64,000 nt of DNA. Source: Sphingomonas qomolangmaensis. Its GTDB lineage: Bacteria > Pseudomonadota > Alphaproteobacteria > Sphingomonadales > Sphingomonadaceae. How positions within the stretch are numbered: position 1 is the stretch's first letter; every line of letters starts with the position of its first letter. Of this stretch, positions 3,903 through 57,652 are shown piece by piece. The notes under the pieces were generated by a model that was given only the letters and a program-made list of their open reading frames with translations, had not been told where the DNA came from and searched no databases. Made by a program: the position numbers and the translations under genes. Where the stretch lies: assembly GCF_024496245.1 (NCBI RefSeq), contig NZ_CP101740.1:2169501-2233500 (forward strand). Reading direction: 5' to 3'.

Positions 3903-4813
3903 GCGAAGCCAAGCCGCAATCGACCCGGCTGACGGTCCTGATCCCCTTCGCGCTGGTCACCTTGATCTGGGGATCGACCTGGATCGTCATTCGCGGCCAA
4001 TTGGGCGAGGTGCCGCCGAGCTGGTCGGTCGCCTATCGCTTCCTGATCGCCGGGGTCGTGATCCTCGGCTGGGCGGCGTTCCGGCGCGAGAAATTGTCGC
4101 TCGATGCGCGCGGCTGGCGATTTGCCGCGATGCTAGGGATGATGCAGTTCGTGTTGAACTTCAACTTCGTCTATCGCGCCGAACAGCACATCACCTCGGG
4201 ACTGGTCGCGGTGGTGTTCGCGCTGCTGCTGGTGCCCAATGCGATCCTGGGGCGCATTTTCCTGGGGCAGATGCTCGGGCGGCAATTACTGATCGGATCG
4301 GCGGTCGCGATCGGCGGCATCGCGATGCTGTTCACCCACGAAGCGCGAGTCGACCCCAACAACGGCAGCGAAGTGATGATCGGCATCGTCATCACCTTGT
4401 GCGGCGTACTCTCGGCCTCGGTCGCCAACGTGATGCAGGGAACACGCACCGCCAAGGCCTATCCGATGGCGACGATGCTGGCACACGCGATGCTGATCGG
4501 CGCGGCGATCGATGCGAGCTTCGCCTGGATCACCACCGGCCCGCCGGTGTTCGACTGTTCGGCGAGCTACATCGCGGGCGTGCTGTACCTCGGTATCGTC
4601 GCCTCAGCCGTCGCGTTCACGCTGTATTTCGGGGTGCTGCGGATCATCGGCCCCGCCAAGGCGGCCTATTCGGGGGTGATCGTGCCGGTGATCGCTATGG
4701 CGCTGTCGACCGCGTTCGAGGGCTATCGCTGGTCTTGGCTCGCGGCGATCGGTGCGGCGCTGGCGCTGACCGGGCTGGTGATCGCGCTCAAGGCACGCAG
4801 GCCGAACCGGTAG
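3899..4813 (+). CDS. EamA/DMT-family transporter
   Basis: Inner-membrane drug/metabolite-type exporter of 304 aa with about ten hydrophobic helices in two EamA repeats. The first repeat carries the familiar TLIWGSTWIVIR start; the second ends in ALTGLVIALKARR. TTG start overlapping the preceding TGA (TTGA). The partner is an amino-acid lyase, which makes an amino acid or small metabolite a plausible substrate, but this is inference. Its last 91 nt are antisense to the end of the convergent epimerase gene. Confidence 0.9.
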   Translation: MSEAKPQSTRLTVLIPFALVTLIWGSTWIVIRGQLGEVPPSWSVAYRFLIAGVVILGWAAFRREKLSLDARGWRFAAMLGMMQFVLNFNFVYRAEQHITSGLVAVVFALLLVPNAILGRIFLGQMLGRQLLIGSAVAIGGIAMLFTHEARVDPNNGSEVMIGIVITLCGVLSASVANVMQGTRTAKAYPMATMLAHAMLIGAAIDASFAWITTGPPVFDCSASYIAGVLYLGIVASAVAFTLYFGVLRIIGPAKAAYSGVIVPVIAMALSTAFEGYRWSWLAAIGAALALTGLVIALKARRPNR

Positions 4814-5559
4814 TCGGGGTACGCCGGGCGCCAGCCGAGCACGCGCTTGGCCTTGCCATTGGCGACGCGGCGGTTCTCGGCATAGAAGCTGCGCCCCATC
4901 GCCGACAGGCTTTCGAGCGGGACGAAGGGCGGCGACGGCAGGCTGAGCAGCCGCGCGGCGTGTTCGATCACTTCATTCTGGCCGCAGGGATAGTCGTCGG
5001 ACAAATTATACGCGCCGGCGGGGGCGTCGAAGCCCAGGGTCACGCCATGGACGATGTCGTCGACATGGACGCGGCTGAACACCTGGCCGGGCAAATCGAC
5101 ACGATGCGCCTCGCCCGATGCGACGCGCGTCAGCGGCGAACGGCCGGGGCCGTAGATGCCCGGCAGCCGAAACACGCGCGCGCCAAGCGCCAGCCAGTCG
5201 GCATCGGCCTGGTTGCGCGCGGGGCGGCGGCCGGTGTCGGCGGGGGTGGTTTCGTCGACCCAGGCGCCGGCTGCATCGCCATAGACCCCGGTCGAGGAGA
5301 GATAGGCAATCGTCGCGCGGCTGTCCGCCAGCGCCGCGCCGTAGGTGGTGAGGACCGGATCTGTGCCATCGGCGGGGGGCACCGACGAGAGAATATGCGT
5401 CGCGTTGGCGATCTCGAACCCCACGCGTTCGGTATCGGCGAAAGCGAGCGTGCCGTCGCGCCCGTCGCGCGTCGTACCCGCGACGCGCGCACCCTTGCCT
5501 TCGAGGTGGGCGCGCAGGCGGGCGGCGGTGTAGCCCTGGCCGAAGATCAGCAGGCGCAT
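4723..5559 (-). CDS. NAD-dependent epimerase/dehydratase-like SDR (YeeZ-like)
   Basis: 278-aa extended SDR-type protein. It has an N-terminal Rossmann motif (IFGQGYTAARL), STGVYG in the active-site region, and RLPGIYGPGRSPL and YNLSDDYPCGQ further on, as in YeeZ-type predicted nucleoside-diphosphate-sugar epimerases. The catalytic Tyr of classic YxxxK is not obvious. Substrate unknown. The ATG at 5559 is preceded by GGGAGGGG from a palindromic repeat. The C-terminal 30 residues or so are antisense to the transporter gene. Confidence 0.82.
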   Translation of the reverse strand: MRLLIFGQGYTAARLRAHLEGKGARVAGTTRDGRDGTLAFADTERVGFEIANATHILSSVPPADGTDPVLTTYGAALADSRATIAYLSSTGVYGDAAGAWVDETTPADTGRRPARNQADADWLALGARVFRLPGIYGPGRSPLTRVASGEAHRVDLPGQVFSRVHVDDIVHGVTLGFDAPAGAYNLSDDYPCGQNEVIEHAARLLSLPSPPFVPLESLSAMGRSFYAENRRVANGKAKRVLGWRPAYPDYRFGLRALSAITSPVSASAAPIAASQDQR

Positions 5560-5563
5560 CTAG

Positions 5564-5689
5564 CCCCTCCCTGAAAGGGAGGGGGTGGGGGTGGGTCTGG
5601 TCCGGGCGATACGGAGAAGCCGCGCGCGCAGGGTGCCGTAGTGCGAGCCCCCTACCCACCCCCGGCCCCGCCCTTTCAAAGAGGGGGGA
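5564..5689. repeat. Composite palindromic repeat
   Basis: A hairpin of cccctccct-gaa-agggaggggg type at 5564-5585 is paired at a distance with ccgccctttcaaagaggggg near 5668-5687. It lies between the end of an M28 peptidase gene and the start of the epimerase gene, and on the minus strand gives a purine run just before the epimerase ATG. Confidence 0.7.
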
Positions 5690-5708
5690 AGAAGGACGTC
5701 ACCCCTCT

Positions 5709-7304
5709 TCATTTCGCACCACCATACAGCGTCCCGAAGAAATCGCCCTTGTTCCACACCGGCTTCGGGCCATCGGCCAGCGCCCGCGTCAGTTCGTAGT
5801 TCAGCCGCACGAAGCGCCGCGCGGCGTCCCAGTCGAAGGGCAGTTTCAGGTCGTCCGAAGGCTGGTGATAATGCTGCTCGATGAACGCCGCGGTCGCCGC
5901 CGCGCCCGGCCCCTTGGGCCCCGCATCGATCGAGACCGAGGGCACCCCCTGCTTGACGAAGCTATAGTGATCGGTGCGCACGAAGAAGGCTTCGTCGGGG
6001 GTCGGATCGGGGGTCAGCGTCAGCCCCTGCGCCTTGGCCACGCGGCCGAGCGCCGGGCCGATGCTCGACCGGTCGGCGCCATAGGCGACGATATCCTCGA
6101 ACTTGTAGGTCATGATCGGCATGTCGAGATTGACGTTGGCGGCAAGGCTGGCGCGCTGCGCCGTCGGATAGCGCGCGAAATAATCCGATCCGATCAGCCC
6201 GGCTTCCTCCGCCGTCACCGCAACGAACAGGACGCTGCGCTTGGGCGGCTTGCCCGATGCGCGGAAGGATTTCGCGACCTCGAGCATCGCGGCGATGCCC
6301 ATCGCATTGTCCATCGCGCCATTGTTGATCGAATCGCCGTTCACCGGATCGGTGACGCCGATATGGTCGAGATGCGCGGTGAGCACGATATGTTCGGCCT
6401 TGAGCGCAGGGTCGCTACCCTCGAGCCGGCCGACCAGATTGGCGCTGACGGTCTGCTGGAGCTCGCTGGTTTGGCGAAGCGCGATGCTCCCGGTGAGCGG
6501 CCCGGTCGGCAGCGGTCGGCTGGCTTCGTCGGCGGCGCGTATCTTCGCCCAGGCGAGCTTCGATCCGGCGAACAGCGTCGCGGCGCCGCGCTCGCTGATC
6601 GCCGCGAGCTGCGGCGCGTTCTGCGGCTGCGTGCTGCCTGCGGGCGGCGTCCACGACATCGACGGACCCGACCAGCTCTCGACGATCGCCGCGAAGTCGT
6701 AGCTCGCGCGCGTCGATCGCGATTCGATGAAGACGATTCCTACCGCACCGCGCTTGCCCGCCAGCTCGGCCTTCACGTCGCGATTGCCGTAATGCGCCGC
6801 GACCTCGCTGTTCATCCCCGGCGGGCCGCCATACATCACCGCGACGATCTTGCCGCGGACGTCGAGCCCGCGATAATCGTCGATGCCGCGTGTCGGATCG
6901 ACCACGCCATAGCCAGCGAACACCATCTCGCCGCTGACGGTGCGCTCGGCCTGCGCAAGGCTCGCGCGGCCGACGAAATCGGTGCCGAGCGCCAGCACCG
7001 TCTCGCGCCCGCCGCGTGTCAGCGTCGCGCTCGCGGTTAGCGGTCGCGACGCCACCAGCGGCACCTGCTGGCGCCAGCCGCCGCGCTCGCCCGCGGGCGC
7101 CAGCCCCGCCGCCTCCATCTGCGCGATCACATAATCGGCGGCGATGTCATATTCGGGGCTGCCCGCCTGCCGCCCCTTGAACGAATCGGCAGCGAGGAAC
7201 GCGACATGCGCCTTCATCGCCGCCTGGTCGGCGGGCAGCGTTTGCGCCGGCGCAATACCGCCGAGCGCGACCCCCGCCAGGACGGCGAAGCCGGTGCGGA
7301 TCAC
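5709..7304 (-). CDS. Secreted M28-family metallopeptidase (paralogue 2)
   Basis: Zinc aminopeptidase-type exopeptidase of 531 aa, probably periplasmic. I chose the GTG at 7304 because it overlaps the upstream stop (GTGA) and gives a clean signal peptide (MIRTGFAVLAGVALGG...APAQ). A PA-like insert precedes the M28 core. Zinc ligands are visible in order: TAHLDHIG (His), NGAMDNAMG (Asp), TAEEAG (Glu pair), NVNLDMP (Asp) and EQHYHQPSD (His). It ends WNKGDFFGTLYGGAK, nearly the same as its upstream neighbour, so the pair is a tandem duplication. Substrate unknown. Confidence 0.9.
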   Translation of the reverse strand: MIRTGFAVLAGVALGGIAPAQTLPADQAAMKAHVAFLAADSFKGRQAGSPEYDIAADYVIAQMEAAGLAPAGERGGWRQQVPLVASRPLTASATLTRGGRETVLALGTDFVGRASLAQAERTVSGEMVFAGYGVVDPTRGIDDYRGLDVRGKIVAVMYGGPPGMNSEVAAHYGNRDVKAELAGKRGAVGIVFIESRSTRASYDFAAIVESWSGPSMSWTPPAGSTQPQNAPQLAAISERGAATLFAGSKLAWAKIRAADEASRPLPTGPLTGSIALRQTSELQQTVSANLVGRLEGSDPALKAEHIVLTAHLDHIGVTDPVNGDSINNGAMDNAMGIAAMLEVAKSFRASGKPPKRSVLFVAVTAEEAGLIGSDYFARYPTAQRASLAANVNLDMPIMTYKFEDIVAYGADRSSIGPALGRVAKAQGLTLTPDPTPDEAFFVRTDHYSFVKQGVPSVSIDAGPKGPGAAATAAFIEQHYHQPSDDLKLPFDWDAARRFVRLNYELTRALADGPKPVWNKGDFFGTLYGGAK

Positions 7305-50179: not shown

Positions 50180-50309
50180 GGCGGTCCTTCGTACAGCGGG
50201 GAATGCCGATGCGGTGCTTTCGACAGCAGCATGACGGACGCGCGAATTGCCGCCGCACAGCGCATATGCTTGGGTGCGCCGATCGAAGGATCGGGAGGCA
50301 AAGCAAGCG

Positions 50310-51437
50310 ATGTCCAGGAAGTTCATTGCAATTGCCGCACTACCGCTCGCGCTGGCGGCGGGGCATGCCGGCGCGAGCGACGTCGCGCGGCGATCGGGCA
50401 TCGTCATCGGCATCCTGTCCCCCGGCCCGCTCAATGCGATCACCGACGTTCCCGGCGTCCGCGTCGGCCATGTCACCATCGAGCGCGGCAAGGACATCCA
50501 TACCGGCGTCACCGCAATCCTGCCGCACGGTGGCAACCTGTTTCGCGAGAAAGTTCCCGCCGGGATCGTCGTCGCCAACGGCTTCGGCAAGTTCGCCGGA
50601 TCGACCCAGATCGAGGAACTGGGCGAGGTCGAAACCCCGATCCTGCTCACCAACACGCTGTCGGTTGCCGAGGCGATGGCCGCCTCGGTCGAATGGACGC
50701 TGGCACAACCGGGGAACGAGGACGTCCGATCGGTCAACGCGGTGGTCGGCGAGACCAATGACGGAATGCTCAACGACATTCGCGGCCGCCATGTACAGGT
50801 CGCCGATGCACGCCGCGCGATCGAGACGGCCGCCGCCGGCGCGGTTGCCGAGGGCAATGTCGGCGCGGGCACCGGCACCGTCGCGTTCGGCTGCAAGGGC
50901 GGGATCGGATCGGCCTCGCGCCGCCTGCCCGCCTCGCTCGGTGGCTGGACCGTCGGTGTGCTCGTCCAGGCGAATTATGGCGGGGTACTCACGATCGACG
51001 GCACCGCGGTTGGCCCGGCGCTTGGCCGTTATGATTTCCAGCGCGAGATCGAGGAGCGCCGCGCCGATGGATCGGTGATCGTCGTTGTCGCCACCGACGC
51101 GCCGCTATCCGATCGCAATTTGCGCCGCCTCGCCGCGCGCGCCTTTGCCGGGATCGCGCGCAGCGGATCGTCCTTCTCGAACGGGTCGGGCGACTATGCG
51201 GTCGCCTTCTCGACCGCGGCGTCGGTGCGGCGCAAGACGGGCACGGCGATCCCGATGGTCGCCGACCTCCCCAACGGGGCGATGAGCCCCGCCTTCCAGG
51301 CCGCCGCCGAAGCGACCGAGGAAGCGGTATTGAACGCGATGCTATCGGCGCGGACCACCGTCGGCCATCGCGGCACGGTCGAGGCACTGCCGCTCGATCG
51401 CGTGCTGCCGCTGCTCCCCAAGCCCCGGTCGCGCTAG
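50310..51437 (+). CDS. Secreted P1-family peptidase (DmpA-like aminopeptidase)
   Basis: 375-aa self-processing Ntn-type peptidase of the DmpA/L-aminopeptidase D-esterase family, with a signal peptide (to about Ala22). Family landmarks: LNAITDVPGVRVGH, TGVTAILPHGG, GNVGAGTGTVAFGCKGGIGSASR and VGVLVQANYGG. Predicted autocleavage is Gly254-Ser255 in ADGSVIVVVATDAPL, making Ser255 the nucleophile. GGGAGG precedes ATG 50310. It trims N-terminal residues, sometimes D-residues, from peptides. Sits 31 nt before the LysR gene of the export operon. Confidence 0.92.
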   Translation: MSRKFIAIAALPLALAAGHAGASDVARRSGIVIGILSPGPLNAITDVPGVRVGHVTIERGKDIHTGVTAILPHGGNLFREKVPAGIVVANGFGKFAGSTQIEELGEVETPILLTNTLSVAEAMAASVEWTLAQPGNEDVRSVNAVVGETNDGMLNDIRGRHVQVADARRAIETAAAGAVAEGNVGAGTGTVAFGCKGGIGSASRRLPASLGGWTVGVLVQANYGGVLTIDGTAVGPALGRYDFQREIEERRADGSVIVVVATDAPLSDRNLRRLAARAFAGIARSGSSFSNGSGDYAVAFSTAASVRRKTGTAIPMVADLPNGAMSPAFQAAAEATEEAVLNAMLSARTTVGHRGTVEALPLDRVLPLLPKPRSR

Positions 51438-51468: not shown

Positions 51469-52377
51469 ATGCCTGCCGGCGTGCCGCCGACGATCCGCCA
51501 GCTTCGCTACCTCGTGGCGCTTGCCGAACAGGGCAGCTTCACCCGCGGTGCCGCCGCGGTCGAGGTGACGCAACCAAGCTTCTCGCAGCAGATCCAGCTG
51601 CTCGAGACGATGCTGCAGGGCCGCGTGGTCGAGCGTGGCGGGCGAACGATCCTGACGCCCCTGGGGCGCGATGCGGTGGCGGCGGCGCGGCGCGTGCTGG
51701 TCGAGGTCGATGGCTTTGCGGCGCTCGCGGACCGCCGCGTCGACGCGCTGTCGGGCACCATCCGCCTCGGCGTTTCCCCGACGCTCGGTCCCTATATTCT
51801 CCCCCAGCTCGTCGCACGGCTCCACGCCACCAGTCCGACGCTTCGTGTCCATGTGCGCGAAGGGATGCCCAGTCTGCTGCTCGAGATGCTCAGCGACGGC
51901 GCACACGACGTCGTGTTGCTGCAATTGCCCGTCGACCAGGCCGGCCGCCATGTCGAGCGGCTGTTTCGCGATCCGCTCTACCTGGCGATGGCGGCCGACG
52001 ACCCGCTGCGCGACCGCGCCGAAATCACCACCGCCGACCTGGCCGGCCGCGGCTTGCTGACGCTGCAGGCGCAATATCGCATGAGTGACCAGGTGACCGC
52101 GCTGGCGGAAGCGGCGGGGGCGCATGTGCTGCGCGATTACGAGGGCACGAGCCTCGATGCGATCCGGCAGATGGCAGGCATGGGGATGGGGCTCGCCTTC
52201 CTGCCGCAGCTCTATGTCCGCCAGGAAATCCGGCCCGGCGACGAAGTGATCGCGCGGCCCTTTGCCGGCGGGCGCCATTATCGCGAGATCGGGCTGGTGT
52301 GGCGCGCCGGCGCCGGGCGCGCCCCTGCGTTCGAAAAGCTCGCCGCGCTGTTGCGCGAAGTGGCTGTAATAGGATAA
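51469..52377 (+). CDS. LysR-family regulator, OxyR-like but without cysteines
   Basis: 302 aa. The N-terminal winged helix (TIRQLRYLVALAEQGSFTRGAAAVEVTQPSFSQQIQLLE) and effector domain (GTIRLGVSPTLGPYILPQLV; PLYLAMAADDPLRD) are closest to OxyR. There is no cysteine in the whole protein; where OxyR has its peroxide-sensing pair it reads LTLQAQYRMSDQVTALA. It should therefore respond to something other than thiol oxidation. It is co-directional with the export operon, 82 nt ahead, and may control it. Confidence 0.9.
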   Translation: MPAGVPPTIRQLRYLVALAEQGSFTRGAAAVEVTQPSFSQQIQLLETMLQGRVVERGGRTILTPLGRDAVAAARRVLVEVDGFAALADRRVDALSGTIRLGVSPTLGPYILPQLVARLHATSPTLRVHVREGMPSLLLEMLSDGAHDVVLLQLPVDQAGRHVERLFRDPLYLAMAADDPLRDRAEITTADLAGRGLLTLQAQYRMSDQVTALAEAAGAHVLRDYEGTSLDAIRQMAGMGMGLAFLPQLYVRQEIRPGDEVIARPFAGGRHYREIGLVWRAGAGRAPAFEKLAALLREVAVIG

Positions 52378-52459
52378 TTCTATGGCAATTATAGCGGCAG
52401 TCCCGTTGGCCCGATAAGCCGAACGCCGCATTCTGATCTTCTCGCACAGGGAGACGGTA

Positions 52460-54151
52460 ATGGCGGCGCAGCGCGCAGGTTTGCGGGCATTCGGTGGCTG
52501 GATCGCGCTGGTATTGGCGCCCGATGCGGCGTTCGTCCGGCTCGCGATCGTCTATGGCATCGCGATTTCGCTATTGTCGCTGGCGACACCGATTTCGGTC
52601 CAGCTGCTGATCAACTCGGTCGCCAACACCGCGATGCCCGCGCCGTTGTTCACGCTCGCGGGCATCCTGTTCCTGCTGCTGGCGATCGCCGGGGTGCTCA
52701 GCGCGCTGCGGATCCATCTGATGGCGCTGTTCGAGCGCCGGCTGTTCGCGCGGCTCGTTGCCGAGATCACGCTGCGATCGGTCCATGCGCAGAACCCGTT
52801 CTTCGCCGATGCACGCCGCGGCGACCTGTTCAACCGCTATTTCGACCTCATCACGGTGCAAAAGGCGCTGCCCAGCCTGTTGATCGGCGGCTTCACGATC
52901 GTGCTCCAGGGGGCAGTCGGGCTGATCGTCACCAGCTTCTACCACCCGTTTTTCCTGGCGTTCAACGGTGTGCTGGTCTTCACGCTGTTCGTGATCTGGC
53001 AGGTCTGGGCATCGGGCGCGGTGCGCAGCGCGGTCGCCAAGAGCCACGCCAAGCACGCCACCGCGCACTGGCTAGAAAGCGTCGGGGGATCGAACGGCTT
53101 CTATAAATCGGGCCGCCACCTCAATTTCGCGATGGACCGGTCGGAGGCGATGACCGCCGACTATGTCGCGCAGCACCGCCGCCATTTTCGCTACACCTTC
53201 GCGCAGACGCTTTGCCTGTTGCTCACCTATGCGCTGGCGAGCGCGGCGCTGCTCGCGCTCGGCGGCTGGCTGATCATCCAGGGTGAGCTGTCGATCGGCC
53301 AATTGGTCGCCGCTGAGCTGATCCTGTCGGGGGTGTTCTACGGCATCGCGCAGTTCGGCACCTATCTCGACACGCTGTACGACCTGGCCGCAGGACTCGA
53401 GGAATTGTCGCTGTTCTGGGACATTCCGCAGGAAGAACCGCGCACCGGCAACGCGCAAGGCCCCGCCAATGGCGCGATCCGGCTGCGCGGGGTGCAGCAT
53501 GGCGGCCATGTTTTCGACTTCGCGGTCGACAGCGGCGAGCAGCTCGCGATCGTCGCGGCCCCGGGGGTCGAACGCACGCTTGCCCTGTTGCTCAAGCGGC
53601 ACGAACAGCCCGGGCGCGGGCTGGTGCTGGTCGGCGGTAGCGATATTGCGGGGTTCGACATGTACCGGCTGCGCGCCGACATCATGGTGCTAGACCGCCC
53701 GAGCTTCGTCGAAATGTCGGTGCGCAACTATCTGACGCTCGCCGCCTCGGGCGATGCGACGCGGGTGATGGACGTGGTCGAGGCGGTCGGGCTCGCGACG
53801 CGCGTCGGCGCGCTCGACGACGGGCTCGATACGATCGTGTCGAACACCGGCTGGCCCTTTTCGGTGGGCGAGATGATGGCGCTCAAGCTCGCTGCCGCGT
53901 TGCTCGCGCGCCCGCGCGTGCTGGTGCTGTCGCCGCTCTACGACCTGCTGCCCACCGCGCGCGTCGATGCAGCACTCGCCAGCCTGCGCGAAAGCGGCAC
54001 CACCGTGCTGCAATTCACCCGCCGGCCGCAGGGGCTGACGCGCGACGGTAGACTGTGGGTGGGCAGCCAGGCGCAGCAGCGCTGCGTCAGCGAGGCCGAG
54101 CTGATTGCGCTCGCGCGCGACGAAGGAGACACCGATGCTCTTCCAGCCTGA
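52460..54151 (+). CDS. ABC exporter-like protein with degenerate nucleotide-binding domain
   Basis: 563 aa. An ABC type I exporter membrane domain (six helices between about 15 and 310) is followed by an NBD-like domain from about 338. Landmarks are lost: Walker A is IVAAPGVERTLALL (about 364-377) instead of GxxGxGKST; the signature is PFSVGEMMALKLAAALLARP (467-485) rather than LSGGQ; Walker B is VLVLSPLYD (487-495) with Ser-Pro for Asp-Glu; the switch His is replaced in VLQFTRRP. ATP hydrolysis by this domain is doubtful. Overlaps the adaptor gene by 17 nt. Confidence 0.88.
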   Translation: MAAQRAGLRAFGGWIALVLAPDAAFVRLAIVYGIAISLLSLATPISVQLLINSVANTAMPAPLFTLAGILFLLLAIAGVLSALRIHLMALFERRLFARLVAEITLRSVHAQNPFFADARRGDLFNRYFDLITVQKALPSLLIGGFTIVLQGAVGLIVTSFYHPFFLAFNGVLVFTLFVIWQVWASGAVRSAVAKSHAKHATAHWLESVGGSNGFYKSGRHLNFAMDRSEAMTADYVAQHRRHFRYTFAQTLCLLLTYALASAALLALGGWLIIQGELSIGQLVAAELILSGVFYGIAQFGTYLDTLYDLAAGLEELSLFWDIPQEEPRTGNAQGPANGAIRLRGVQHGGHVFDFAVDSGEQLAIVAAPGVERTLALLLKRHEQPGRGLVLVGGSDIAGFDMYRLRADIMVLDRPSFVEMSVRNYLTLAASGDATRVMDVVEAVGLATRVGALDDGLDTIVSNTGWPFSVGEMMALKLAAALLARPRVLVLSPLYDLLPTARVDAALASLRESGTTVLQFTRRPQGLTRDGRLWVGSQAQQRCVSEAELIALARDEGDTDALPA

Positions 54152-55181
54152 CCATCTCGCGCATTTCCCCACCTTGGTCTCGATCCGCCCGCCGCGCGTC
54201 ACTCAGGTCATCGCCTGGATGCTGATGATCGGTATCGGGCTGGTCACCGCGATCCTGTTCGGCGTGCCCTGGCTCCAGACCTCGGCGGGCACCGGCCAGG
54301 TCGTCGCGCTCAACCCAGACGATCGGGTCCAGTCGGTCACCGCGCTGGTGCAGGGCCGGGTCGAGCGCTGGTACGTCAACGACGGCGACCAGGTGAAGGC
54401 GGGCGACCCGATCGCGCGGCTGATCGACAACGACCCCGATCTGCTCGTGCGGCTCCGTGCCGAGCGCGCGCAGGTCGCCGCCGAGATCGCCGCCGCGGAG
54501 CAGGCGATGGCGGTCGCGCAGCTCGACGTCGGTCGCTCGGGCCAGTTGCTCGCCGAAGGGCTGATCGCGCGCCGCGATTACGAGGCATCGCAGATCCGCG
54601 TCGCCGATCATCGCGCCAAGCTCGCCGAAGCCCGCGCCAAGCTCAGCCGCGTCGATGTCGGGCTCAACCGCCAGTCGGCGCAGACCGTCCGCGCGCCGCG
54701 CGACGGGCGCATCCAGACGATCGACGCGGGCGCGGGCGCGACGCTGGTCAACCCCGGCGACATCCTCGCGACGCTCGCCCCCGAAGCACCGGTGCGCGTC
54801 GTCGAACTGCTGGTCGACGGCCGCGACGTCGCGCTGATCTATCCGGGCCGCCCGGTGCGGCTGGCGTTCGAGGGCTGGCCGGCGATCCAGTTCAGCGGCT
54901 GGCCTTCGATCGCCGAGGGCATGTTCGACGGTCGCGTCCGCTCGGTCGACCCCTCGGCGCAGGCGACGGGGCTGTTTCGCGTGCTGGTCGAGCCGATGCC
55001 CGGCCGCTTGAGCTGGCCCGACGACGATTATGTCCGGCTGGGTGCCAAGGTGCGCGGTTGGATCCAGATGGAGACCGTCAGCGTCGGCTATGAACTGTGG
55101 CGCCAGCTCAACGACTTCCCGCTCGAATTTCGCCGCCCGGCGATCGAGGCAGAGGCCAAGGCGCAGGAAAAGGCGAAATGA
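54135..55181 (+). CDS. HlyD-family periplasmic adaptor
   Basis: 348 aa. Cytoplasmic head, one membrane helix (VIAWMLMIGIGLVTAILFGVPW), lipoyl half-motif VQGRVERWYVNDGDQVKAGDPIARL, a short coiled-coil hairpin (about 95-165), second half RAPRDGRIQTIDAGAGATLVNPGDILATL, then the beta-barrel region (EAPVRVVELLVDGRDVALIYPGRPVRL). It would bridge the ABC-like protein to the TolC-like channel. ATG at 54135 after GAAGGAG. ATGA overlap with the next gene. Confidence 0.92.
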   Translation: MLFQPDHLAHFPTLVSIRPPRVTQVIAWMLMIGIGLVTAILFGVPWLQTSAGTGQVVALNPDDRVQSVTALVQGRVERWYVNDGDQVKAGDPIARLIDNDPDLLVRLRAERAQVAAEIAAAEQAMAVAQLDVGRSGQLLAEGLIARRDYEASQIRVADHRAKLAEARAKLSRVDVGLNRQSAQTVRAPRDGRIQTIDAGAGATLVNPGDILATLAPEAPVRVVELLVDGRDVALIYPGRPVRLAFEGWPAIQFSGWPSIAEGMFDGRVRSVDPSAQATGLFRVLVEPMPGRLSWPDDDYVRLGAKVRGWIQMETVSVGYELWRQLNDFPLEFRRPAIEAEAKAQEKAK

Positions 55182-56572
55182 TACGCCTCGCGCTCGCGCT
55201 CTTGCTGCTCGCCGCGCTCCCAGCCGCGGCGCACGCGCAAGTGCTCACGCTCGACGAAGTGCTCCGCTCCTCGGCGACCAACGCCCCCGCGATCCTCGAG
55301 GCGATTGCCCGCGAGCGCTGGGCCGATGGTCGCCGGCTGTCGGCCGAGGGCGCGTTCGACACCTTGTTCGAAGGCGACGCGCAGTCGCGGCTGCTGGGCT
55401 ATTATGACGGCACCGTCGTCGAGGCGCGCGCGAGCCGCCCGTTCGCCAATAATGGCGGCGGGCTCTACGCCGGCTATCGCGCCTCGCGCGGCGAATTTCC
55501 GGTCTATGAAGACAAGGCGTTCACCAACCGGCTGGGCGAGGTGAAGGTCGGCGCGGTCTTCTCGCTGATGCGCGATCGGCTGGTCGACGAACGCCGCACC
55601 AAGCTCGGGCTCGCCGGCCGCGACATCGAGCTCGCTCGGCTCGATCGCGAAATGGTGGCGATCGGCGTACAGCGCCGCGCGGTCGGCGCCTATCAGCTGT
55701 GGGTAGTCGCGGGGATGCGCGTCGGCGTCTATCGCGACCTGCTGGCGCTGGCGAGCGAGCGCCAGAAATCGATCGAGCGCCAGATCACGCTCGGCGCGCG
55801 CCCCGAAATCCTCGGCACCGAAAATCGCCAGAACATCGTTCGCCGCCAGACCTTGTTGATCCGCGCCGAGCAGGAACTGGCAAGCGCCGCCAACGCATTG
55901 TCCTTCTATCTCCGCGACGCCGATGGCGAGCCGGTAACCCCCGGCCCCGAACGGCTGCCCGGCGCCTTTCCGGAGCTACGGCTGCCTCCGCTTGGGGGCG
56001 ATCTCGCGCGGCGGATCGACCGGCCCGATCTCGAAACCATCCTCGTCCGGCTCGACCAGGCAGCCGCACGCCGGCAGCTTGCCGAGAACGACCTGCAACC
56101 GCGACTCGACCTGCGCGCTGAAGCCGCCAAGGATGTCGGCCCGGTCGGTCTCGGCGGATCGAGCCGTACCCCTGCCGAGGCGATCGTCGGGGTGCGCTTC
56201 TCGCTCCCGCTCGAACGCCGACAGGCGCGCGGTCGCGTCGCCGAGGCGGTCGCCGAAGCCGACGGTCTTCGCCTGCGTCGCCAGCTGATCGAGGACCAGA
56301 TTCTTGTCGAAGTGAACGACCTGGCGATCCAGGTAGGCGCCGCCGAACGGCTGGTGGCGCTGGCGGGCGACGAAACCGCGCTGGCGAACCGCATGGCCGA
56401 GGCCGAACGGCGGCGCTTCCAGCTCGGCGCGAGCGACTTTCTGGTCGTGAACCTGCGCGAGGAATCGGCGGCCGACGCGCGGCTGCGCCAGCTCGACGCC
56501 GAATATCGCCGTTCGGCTTCACGCGCCGAACTTGTCGCCGCAACGGTCGATCGCGCGCAACTGGGCCTCTAG
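55178..56572 (+). CDS. TolC-family outer-membrane efflux protein
   Basis: 464 aa with a signal peptide (MIRLALALLLLAALPAAAHAQ). Two OEP-type repeats of long helices with strands between: FLRDADGE-like segment near the middle and LRQLDAEYRRSASRAELVAATVDRAQLGL at the end. The N-terminal part (ANNGGGLYAGYRASRGEFPVYEDKAFTNR) is beta-rich, as for the barrel. Start overlaps the adaptor stop (ATGA). Completes the tripartite envelope-spanning set. Confidence 0.87.
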   Translation: MIRLALALLLLAALPAAAHAQVLTLDEVLRSSATNAPAILEAIARERWADGRRLSAEGAFDTLFEGDAQSRLLGYYDGTVVEARASRPFANNGGGLYAGYRASRGEFPVYEDKAFTNRLGEVKVGAVFSLMRDRLVDERRTKLGLAGRDIELARLDREMVAIGVQRRAVGAYQLWVVAGMRVGVYRDLLALASERQKSIERQITLGARPEILGTENRQNIVRRQTLLIRAEQELASAANALSFYLRDADGEPVTPGPERLPGAFPELRLPPLGGDLARRIDRPDLETILVRLDQAAARRQLAENDLQPRLDLRAEAAKDVGPVGLGGSSRTPAEAIVGVRFSLPLERRQARGRVAEAVAEADGLRLRRQLIEDQILVEVNDLAIQVGAAERLVALAGDETALANRMAEAERRRFQLGASDFLVVNLREESAADARLRQLDAEYRRSASRAELVAATVDRAQLGL

Positions 56573-56637: not shown

Positions 56638-57189
56638 ATGGATATCGAAGAACTGATCGACGACGTTATCTCGCGCGAAGGCGGCTATAGCGACCACCCC
56701 GCCGATCGCGGCGGCCCGACCCGCTGGGGGATCACCCAGGCGGTAGCGCGCACCGATGGCTACAGCGGCGACATGCGCGACTTTCCGCGCGAGCGCGCCG
56801 CCGCGCTCTACGCCCGCCTCTATTGGTCACGACCACGCTTCGATACCGTGGCGAAAGTCGCCCCGCGCATCGCCGCCGAATTGTTCGATACCGGGGTAAA
56901 TATGGGCCCCAAGGTCGCCACGACCTTCCTCCAGCGCGCGCTCAATGCGCTCAACCGAAACGCACGCGATTATCCCGACATCGCGGTCGATGGCGTGCTG
57001 GGGCCGCAGACGTCGGCGGCGCTTTCGACGTTCCTGCGCGTGCGGGCACCGCGCGGCGAAACCGTGCTGCTCAAGGCGATCGAAGCGCTGCAAGGCGAAC
57101 GCTATGTCGATCTGGCCGAACGCCGCCCTGCTAACGAGGCGTTTCTGTACGGCTGGCTAGCGAACCGGATCGGTGAACCAAACGGCTGA
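56638..57189 (+). CDS. GH108 N-acetylmuramidase (phage/holin-associated type)
   Basis: 183-aa lysozyme-like enzyme. Catalytic Glu14 in ISREGGYSDHPADRGGPTRWGIT is the GH108 signature; a PG-binding-3 type C-terminal domain (NARDYPDIAVDGVLGPQTSAAL) follows. No signal peptide, consistent with holin-dependent release. Very good Shine-Dalgarno (CAGGAGGATGAC-ATG) and an unusually AT-rich leader (56580-56625). Paired with the holin downstream; 65 nt after the TolC gene. Confidence 0.92.
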   Translation: MDIEELIDDVISREGGYSDHPADRGGPTRWGITQAVARTDGYSGDMRDFPRERAAALYARLYWSRPRFDTVAKVAPRIAAELFDTGVNMGPKVATTFLQRALNALNRNARDYPDIAVDGVLGPQTSAALSTFLRVRAPRGETVLLKAIEALQGERYVDLAERRPANEAFLYGWLANRIGEPNG

Positions 57190-57238
57190 GAGGCGCCGTC
57201 TACGCGTTTACTTCGCCATTCCGAAATGGAGTCTTGCC

Positions 57239-57652
57239 ATGAGCATCCTCGACGGCCTGATCGGCCCGCTTGCCGGCCTGATCGACAAAATCATCCCCGA
57301 CCCCAAGGCGCGCGACGCCGCCAAGCTCGAACTGCTGCGGCTCGAAGGGAGCCAGGAGATCGAGGCGATGCGCGCACGTCTCTCGGCGATCGTCGCCGAA
57401 GCGCAATCGACCGACCCCTGGACCAGCCGCGCGCGCCCGAGCTTCCTCTACGTCATGTACGCGCTGTTCCTGTTCGCGATCCCGATGGGGTTGCTGTCAG
57501 CGCTGTCGCCGCAGATCGCGCAGAGCATCTCGAACGGCATGACCGCGTATCTGCGCGGCTTGCCCGAGGAACTCTATGCGCTCTTCGGCACCGGCTATCT
57601 CGGCTACACCGCCGCGCGGCAATGGGGGAAGGCGAAGGGGGTCGATCGATAA
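57239..57652 (+). CDS. Holin-like protein (3TM holin family)
   Basis: 137 aa: an amphipathic head (MSILDGLIGPLAGLIDKIIPDPKARDAAKLELLRLE), the signature TDPWTSRARPSFLYVMYALFLFAIPMG, a second hydrophobic stretch and a C-terminal GYTAARQWGKAKG. Matches the 'holin of 3TMs' family that accompanies GH108 muramidases in prophages and gene transfer agents. ATG at 57239 after GGAG. No other phage gene is nearby. Confidence 0.85.
   Translation: MSILDGLIGPLAGLIDKIIPDPKARDAAKLELLRLEGSQEIEAMRARLSAIVAEAQSTDPWTSRARPSFLYVMYALFLFAIPMGLLSALSPQIAQSISNGMTAYLRGLPEELYALFGTGYLGYTAARQWGKAKGVDR

Follow-up and report, generated by a model that had tools for sequence, protein, structure and literature searches.

A conserved HlyD-TolC operon around a degenerate ABC protein in Sphingomonas qomolangmaensis, and what may drive it

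What defines an ABC transporter is ATP hydrolysis, and the locus studied here raises the question of what drives such a transporter when its ATPase has lost the catalytic residues. Our window is a stretch of 64,000 nucleotides from Sphingomonas qomolangmaensis (assembly GCF_024496245.1, contig NZ_CP101740.1, positions 2,169,501 to 2,233,500), whose genome consists of one contig of 3.43 Mb. At positions 52460..56572 it carries an operon of three genes, encoding an ABC-exporter-fold protein with a degenerate nucleotide-binding domain (NBD), a HlyD-family adaptor and a TolC-family outer-membrane protein; all features of the operon and its regulator given below lie on the forward strand. The ABC protein very probably does not hydrolyse ATP, judging from its motifs. 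The explanation that we favour, with roughly even confidence, is a tripartite exporter in which the non-hydrolysing ABC protein would act as a proton-driven homodimer, its dead NBD serving as a clamp.

Loss of the catalytic motifs and selection on the domain

The ABC protein (563 aa, 52460..54151) was characterised by Pfam, alignment and structure modelling, and has the full-length ABC-exporter fold, an ABC_membrane-type transmembrane domain (TMD) fused to an NBD fold, with a Pfam ABC_membrane score above the cut-off and a full-length structural match. The TMD spans residues 1-325 (52460..53434; Pfam ABC_membrane at 28-290, helices in the model) and the NBD, placed by Pfam, the structure model and structural matches, residues 332-545 (53453..54094), and these boundaries are also those used for the dN/dS estimates below; the structure models are monomers. 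Within the NBD, the P-loop Lys, the Walker B Asp and Glu, the LSGGQ motif and the switch His are all missing: the alignment places IVAAPGVERTL (364-374; 53549..53581) at the former Walker A, FSVGE (467-471; 53858..53872) at the former signature, RVLVLSPLYDLL (486-497; 53915..53950) at the former Walker B and D-loop, and T520-R521 (54017..54022) at the former switch His. The preliminary description of the locus had already read the sequence as a full-length, in-frame NBD without catalytic motifs, and alignment, Pfam and structure model all confirm this; a mere misalignment of the motifs was ruled out by the structure model and the structural matches.

The loss is not a peculiarity of this genome. 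When the window protein was aligned with 93 homologues, a canonical Walker A, LSGGQ or Walker B appeared in none of the rows. The full set for the clade of the window protein has 102 rows (100 distinct, with two identical pairs from the same genomes fetched twice; one row, L060, is partial), 101 of them with an NBD, and none of the 101 has the P-loop Lys or the Walker B Asp; the respective columns hold E, D, Q or R and S, G, T, A, N or M. None of the 101 has the LSGG core or a His at the aligned switch column either, and the second Gly of the signature is retained in 80 rows of the 102-row set. Four rows from a further group, F183, have an equally dead NBD, one of them with a His one column past the switch column. 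A fully intact NBD was seen in no family member in the partial class, order and phylum samples that were searched with family profiles.

The dead domain is nevertheless under constraint. For 11 pairs, Nei-Gojobori ratios of nonsynonymous to synonymous substitution rates (dN/dS) were 0.037-0.323 for the NBD and 0.010-0.140 for the TMD, the NBD being higher in 10 of the 11 pairs; the NBD is thus under purifying selection, with roughly half the constraint seen in the TMD. In one set of eight genomes (seven for the degenerate protein), mean identity was 63.7% for its TMD vs 47.6% for its NBD, with the NBD higher in none of 21 pairs, whereas the figures were 62.1% vs 77.5% for MsbA_rel (NBD higher in 28 of 28 pairs) and 66.6% vs 72.0% for MsbA-like proteins (27 of 28). 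The relative constraint on the two domains is therefore inverted in comparison with the canonical exporters of the same genomes. Clade-wide motif loss and the purifying selection on the NBD uphold the earlier claim of selection on a non-hydrolysing domain, and together with the dN/dS values they rule out recent decay.

Graded loss and the conserved membrane half

Distant members of the family were found in 14 of 60 genomes of f228, a group within the same phylum. A careful tree unites them in a single clade (100/96) whose sister group is the 33 dead rows sampled (100/100), and separates both from 11 canonical exporters (100/100), with the tool's warning that long outgroup branches may mislead. 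Of these 14 proteins, 13 retain the P-loop Lys and all retain the Walker B Asp; the catalytic Glu, the GG signature and the switch His are present in none, the Glu column holding G in 12 rows, D in one and S in one, and the switch column T in all 14. Homologues with intact motifs, which the preliminary description had named as grounds for reading the loss as recent decay, thus exist in part, for the two nucleotide-binding residues and for none of the other three positions. Pfam ABC_tran scores of the two f228 members scanned are 64 and 74 bits, HlyD adjoins the ABC gene in 14 of 14 loci, and the third gene encodes an OEP/TolC protein in the three of three loci scanned by Pfam. One member of this P-loop-bearing clade, from the 1.3-Mb genome G1005 (rows L179 and L184), has no P-loop, apparently through a parallel loss. 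As to the order of events, probably the signature and switch His went first, before the two clades split, with the P-loop and the Walker B Asp following in the clade of the window.

The whole NBD was probably lost once. The protein of locus L100, in genome G401, is a TMD-only form of 333 aa whose TGA stop overlaps the HlyD ATG as ATGA, with TolC following, and it is the only NBD-less member among the 120 family rows. It lies inside its contig (26.7-27.7 of 31.2 kb) and nests among NBD-bearing members of the window's clade (careful tree, 100/99); tblastn searches of the locus with three family NBDs gave no convincing remnant (best E 0.033). G401 is one of 11 positive genomes among 29 of its family. 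Any activity of this protein must do without an NBD, an indication that its energy comes from elsewhere. Its top Foldseek match is HlyB/D. No match to SbmA_BacA, which we take to be the Pfam name of the SbmA/BacA family, was found for it (E <= 0.01) or for the window protein (E <= 1), and SbmA is absent among the 50 structural-search rows listed, which says nothing on relatedness.

The membrane half, on the other hand, carries residues specific to the family. Every one of the 120 family rows has Glu286 in transmembrane helix 6 (TM6; codon 53315..53317); the 11 canonical exporters all have V, I, S or N in its place. Lys198, Gln249 and Tyr257 show the same distribution, each 120 of 120 vs none of 11, and Gln281 and Tyr307 are also invariant in the family, Gln281 occurring in one canonical row as well. 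The window's clade and F183 together have His162 (codon 52943..52945) in all of their 106 rows; in the 14 f228 rows the residue is Ser throughout.

The operon, its neighbourhood and its spread

The gene for the HlyD-family periplasmic adaptor (348 aa, 54135..55181; Pfam HlyD_3 2e-15 and HlyD_D23 1e-11, with a query one codon short) shares a 17-nt overlap with the ABC gene, and that for the TolC-family outer-membrane protein (464 aa, 55178..56572; Pfam OEP 3e-22, with a query one codon long at the 5' end) overlaps the HlyD stop as ATGA; the tight overlaps described earlier are thus as stated. Ahead of the operon lies a gene for a LysR-family regulator of 302 aa (51469..52377; Pfam LysR_substrate 8e-46, HTH_1 4e-16), separated from the ABC gene by a gap of 82 nt (52378..52459) in which the scan found no sigma-70-like site; the single site that the scan returned, vs a chance expectation of 0.6, is on the opposite strand and outside the operon. 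Next to the Sphingopyxis copy, the LysR gene is annotated as a 'hydrogen peroxide-inducible genes activator' (OxyR-like). The regulator of the window contains no Cys and therefore would not sense peroxide through thiols, despite the OxyR resemblance suggested by its relative's annotation. Upstream of LysR is a gene for an S58-family peptidase (50247-51437; Pfam 4e-113). Directly downstream of TolC, at 56638-57652, are a GH108 lysozyme-like gene and a GTA-type 3TM holin gene, which also adjoin the operon in locus L016 and look unrelated to it.

Across 93 loci (this neighbourhood count omits L001-L010 for their short flanks, and the counts based on the first 12 loci omit L015, which is broken, and L001, the window itself), TolC follows in all 93 and HlyD adjoins the ABC gene in 92, the remaining one having failed the HlyD distance rule. 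LysR is adjacent in 59 loci, in 49 on the same strand and in 10 divergent, and was not found in 34, three of which have less than 1 kb upstream. Sampled flanking genes vary by genus and include phosphomannomutase, FolD, a TonB receptor, MFS, DabA, fumarase and others. Two broken copies were seen. In L015 (G006:C71, 414-2158) a frame break, either a natural uncoupling or a sequencing error, falls between TMD and NBD, with the HlyD and TolC frames open; in L150 (NZ_CP009453.1, 4001-6670, a plasmid of Sphingopyxis sp. 113P3) the match breaks off around residue 423, where an IS3-family transposase gene follows, and the annotation shows neither HlyD nor TolC beyond that point.

The closest named relative of the window protein, at 90% identity, comes from Sphingomonas sp. 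37zxx. In the order sample the family is present in 56 of 296 genomes (E <= 1.5e-111), the next matches being canonical exporters from E 3.2e-34 upward; it was found in 3 of 289 genomes of the class sample (1e-40) and 11 of 398 of the phylum sample (1e-60). Fifteen sphingomonad plasmid records carry the ABC gene, 14 of them over at least 80% of its length. One copy of the gene, SARO_RS19820, lies on pNL2 of Novosphingobium aromaticivorans DSM 12444. In a quick tree, 22 Xanthomonas rows nest within the sphingomonads (support 98 at the Xanthomonas fork), suggesting horizontal transfer.

Known systems, rival explanations and meaning

The closest parallel known to us in the literature is SbmA, a proton-driven transporter with an ABC-like TMD that lost its NBD (PMC13316013). 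According to that paper, SbmA/BacA and the SLiPTs share with our family an exporter-like TMD without a working NBD, a protonatable membrane Glu and, for the SLiPTs, a proposed descent from full-length ABC transporters; they differ in being peptide importers that have additional TM0 helices and lack coupling helices, and the accessible part of the paper does not mention a HlyD/TolC operon. Our family, unlike the SLiPTs, usually keeps its degenerate NBD. The ABC protein is, by analogy, probably a secondary transporter like SbmA and of separate origin. The type I secretion ABC proteins (HlyB, LssB, PCAT) resemble it in fold and in their operon with HlyD and TolC, and the label 'type I-like export' given in the preliminary description holds to that extent, as an analogy. 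It goes no further: the protein has a dead NBD and no C39-like domain, and its NCBIfam scores are far below the cut-offs (104 bits vs 725.55 for its best match, the HlyB model TIGR01846, and 93.7 vs 693.1 for TIGR03375). No substrate gene was recognised among the neighbouring open reading frames (ORFs) in the window or 10 sampled flanking ORFs in relatives (two of them LysR), all of which look unrelated, though small substrates could be missed.

Members of the family may have been reported before. The HlyBD2-OMP2 genes of Blastomonas fulva T2 (B5J99_15940-15950; 1659, 1053 and 1503 bp), called an ABC-type pump and said to be similar to N. aromaticivorans (PMC9505733), resemble our operon in gene order and sizes, by which alone we liken them; in the accessible text the word 'walker' occurs once, in a reference. 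PMC12448352 deals with other type I secretion systems of Xanthomonas. We found no account of the family as a pseudo-ATPase in the literature covered, which excluded subscription papers and preprints.

In the explanation that we favour, a LysR-linked pump would consist of the ABC protein in the inner membrane, the HlyD adaptor in the periplasm and the TolC channel. The ABC protein would descend from an ATP-driven ABC exporter and assemble as an exporter-like homodimer, its dead NBD being kept as a structural clamp that holds the cytoplasmic helices, and the proton gradient would drive its alternating access. The coupling site would be Glu286 of TM6 with Lys198, Gln249 and Tyr257, joined by His162 in the window's clade; such proton coupling is proposed by analogy with SbmA and has, in our view, about even odds. 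The substrate could be a small molecule or a short peptide, a guess prompted by the linked LysR gene and by the fact that no gene for a substrate was recognised.

Several observations weigh against this explanation. The argument about energetics is built from sequences and structure models, that for proton coupling from one membrane Glu and an analogy, and the polar membrane residues could serve packing or the substrate instead. Only one gene, from an assembly of 250 contigs, exemplifies loss of the entire NBD, and the sister clade f228 could, by its motifs, still bind ATP. In the clade of the window, the catalytic column holds Glu in 2 of 102 rows (L013 and L102, which also carry a His one column past the switch column) and Asp in four (L096-L099); because of the two Glu rows, the loss of the catalytic Glu may have been repeated and not strictly clade-wide. 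Lastly, with presence in 56 of 296 genomes of the order, the patchy family is dispensable to many relatives.

Of the three energy options offered in the preliminary description (another ATPase, a heterodimer partner or another energy source), the last gains from the NBD-less member and a dedicated partner is disfavoured. The ABC protein might be the inactive half of a heterodimer, with all hydrolysis done by an intact half-transporter encoded elsewhere. Degenerate-site heterodimers are indeed common among ABC exporters (PMC7756269; TmrAB in PMC8277102), and those with one degenerate site (TmrAB, TM287/288, CydDC) are structural matches of our protein and share its loss of catalytic residues. 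Their degenerate sites are reported to hold ATP still, possibly as a glue (PMC7756269), which the window's clade, its P-loop gone, cannot do by its motifs. The best lead is an intact MsbA_rel half-transporter (TIGR02204, scored for L059, e.g. 4434-6767) directly upstream of LysR in 22 of 22 Xanthomonas loci, yet this is one genus and one event. A motif scan for intact NBDs near the operon (with L104 and L105 as canonical controls) returned these 22 loci and one other ABC ORF, 14.3 kb into L064; beside sphingomonad loci it found no MsbA_rel, its strict pattern being able to miss some NBDs. Of 41 relatives, 39 have MsbA_rel, namely all 14 that carry the degenerate protein and 25 of the 27 that lack it; it therefore does not track that protein, and as a dedicated partner beside the operon it was rejected. 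Eight of the 56 positive genomes have only three ABC_membrane matches: in seven the degenerate protein is accompanied by one intact MsbA_rel orthologue and one intact MsbA-like protein, leaving no dedicated partner, and the eighth (G576) has three intact proteins including an LssB type. G1005 of f228 has two further ABC_membrane proteins, and in G401 a partner would need to pair with an NBD-less subunit. The co-occurring intact half-transporter that the preliminary description suggested looking for was thus not found as one tracking the family, and a dedicated heterodimer partner is, from the sequences, unlikely; the part could still be played by a housekeeping exporter or by an ATPase that does not belong to the ABC_membrane Pfam family.

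The remaining alternatives do without a partner. The three proteins could form an unpowered, gated conduit in which the substrate's own gradient drives export and the TMD only gates; needing no coupling residue, this is compatible with an inactive NBD, with its absence from one member and with a conserved operon, but alone it leaves the invariant membrane Glu and the family-specific polar residues unexplained, and we regard it as improbable, if worth keeping in mind. That the NBD acts as a nucleotide switch, a regulatory pseudo-ATPase binding ATP without hydrolysing it, agrees with f228, where the P-loop Lys and Walker B Asp persist without Glu, GG and His and Pfam still recognises ABC_tran; with both nucleotide-binding motifs gone from the window's clade, it would fit at most the sister clade or a past stage, and for our protein we think it quite unlikely. 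About as unlikely is a role outside transport, as a scaffold anchoring HlyD-TolC or as part of an operon for envelope maintenance: no activity is known and the operon is patchy, yet the best conserved part of the protein is the TMD with its polar helix residues, not only a docking surface. A recent pseudogene or a sequencing error is next to impossible, since the motif loss is clade-wide, the frames are open and dN/dS lies well below 1, the broken copies in G006 and on the Sphingopyxis plasmid notwithstanding.

Overall, the stepwise decay of the ATP half beside a retained membrane half suggests a once ATP-driven pump that now runs on another energy source. The annotation 'ABC transporter ATP-binding protein', found on four plasmid records, is wrong for the family. 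We suggest, tentatively and with slightly less than even confidence, that an ATP-driven ABC exporter has here become, a second time and independently, a proton-driven secondary transporter working with HlyD and TolC, the change being caught in steps and the TM6 Glu taking over the coupling. A conserved and horizontally spread family of this kind would represent living intermediates between primary and secondary transport, and would open to experiment the question, until now linked to SbmA, of how an ABC fold can switch from one energy source to another.

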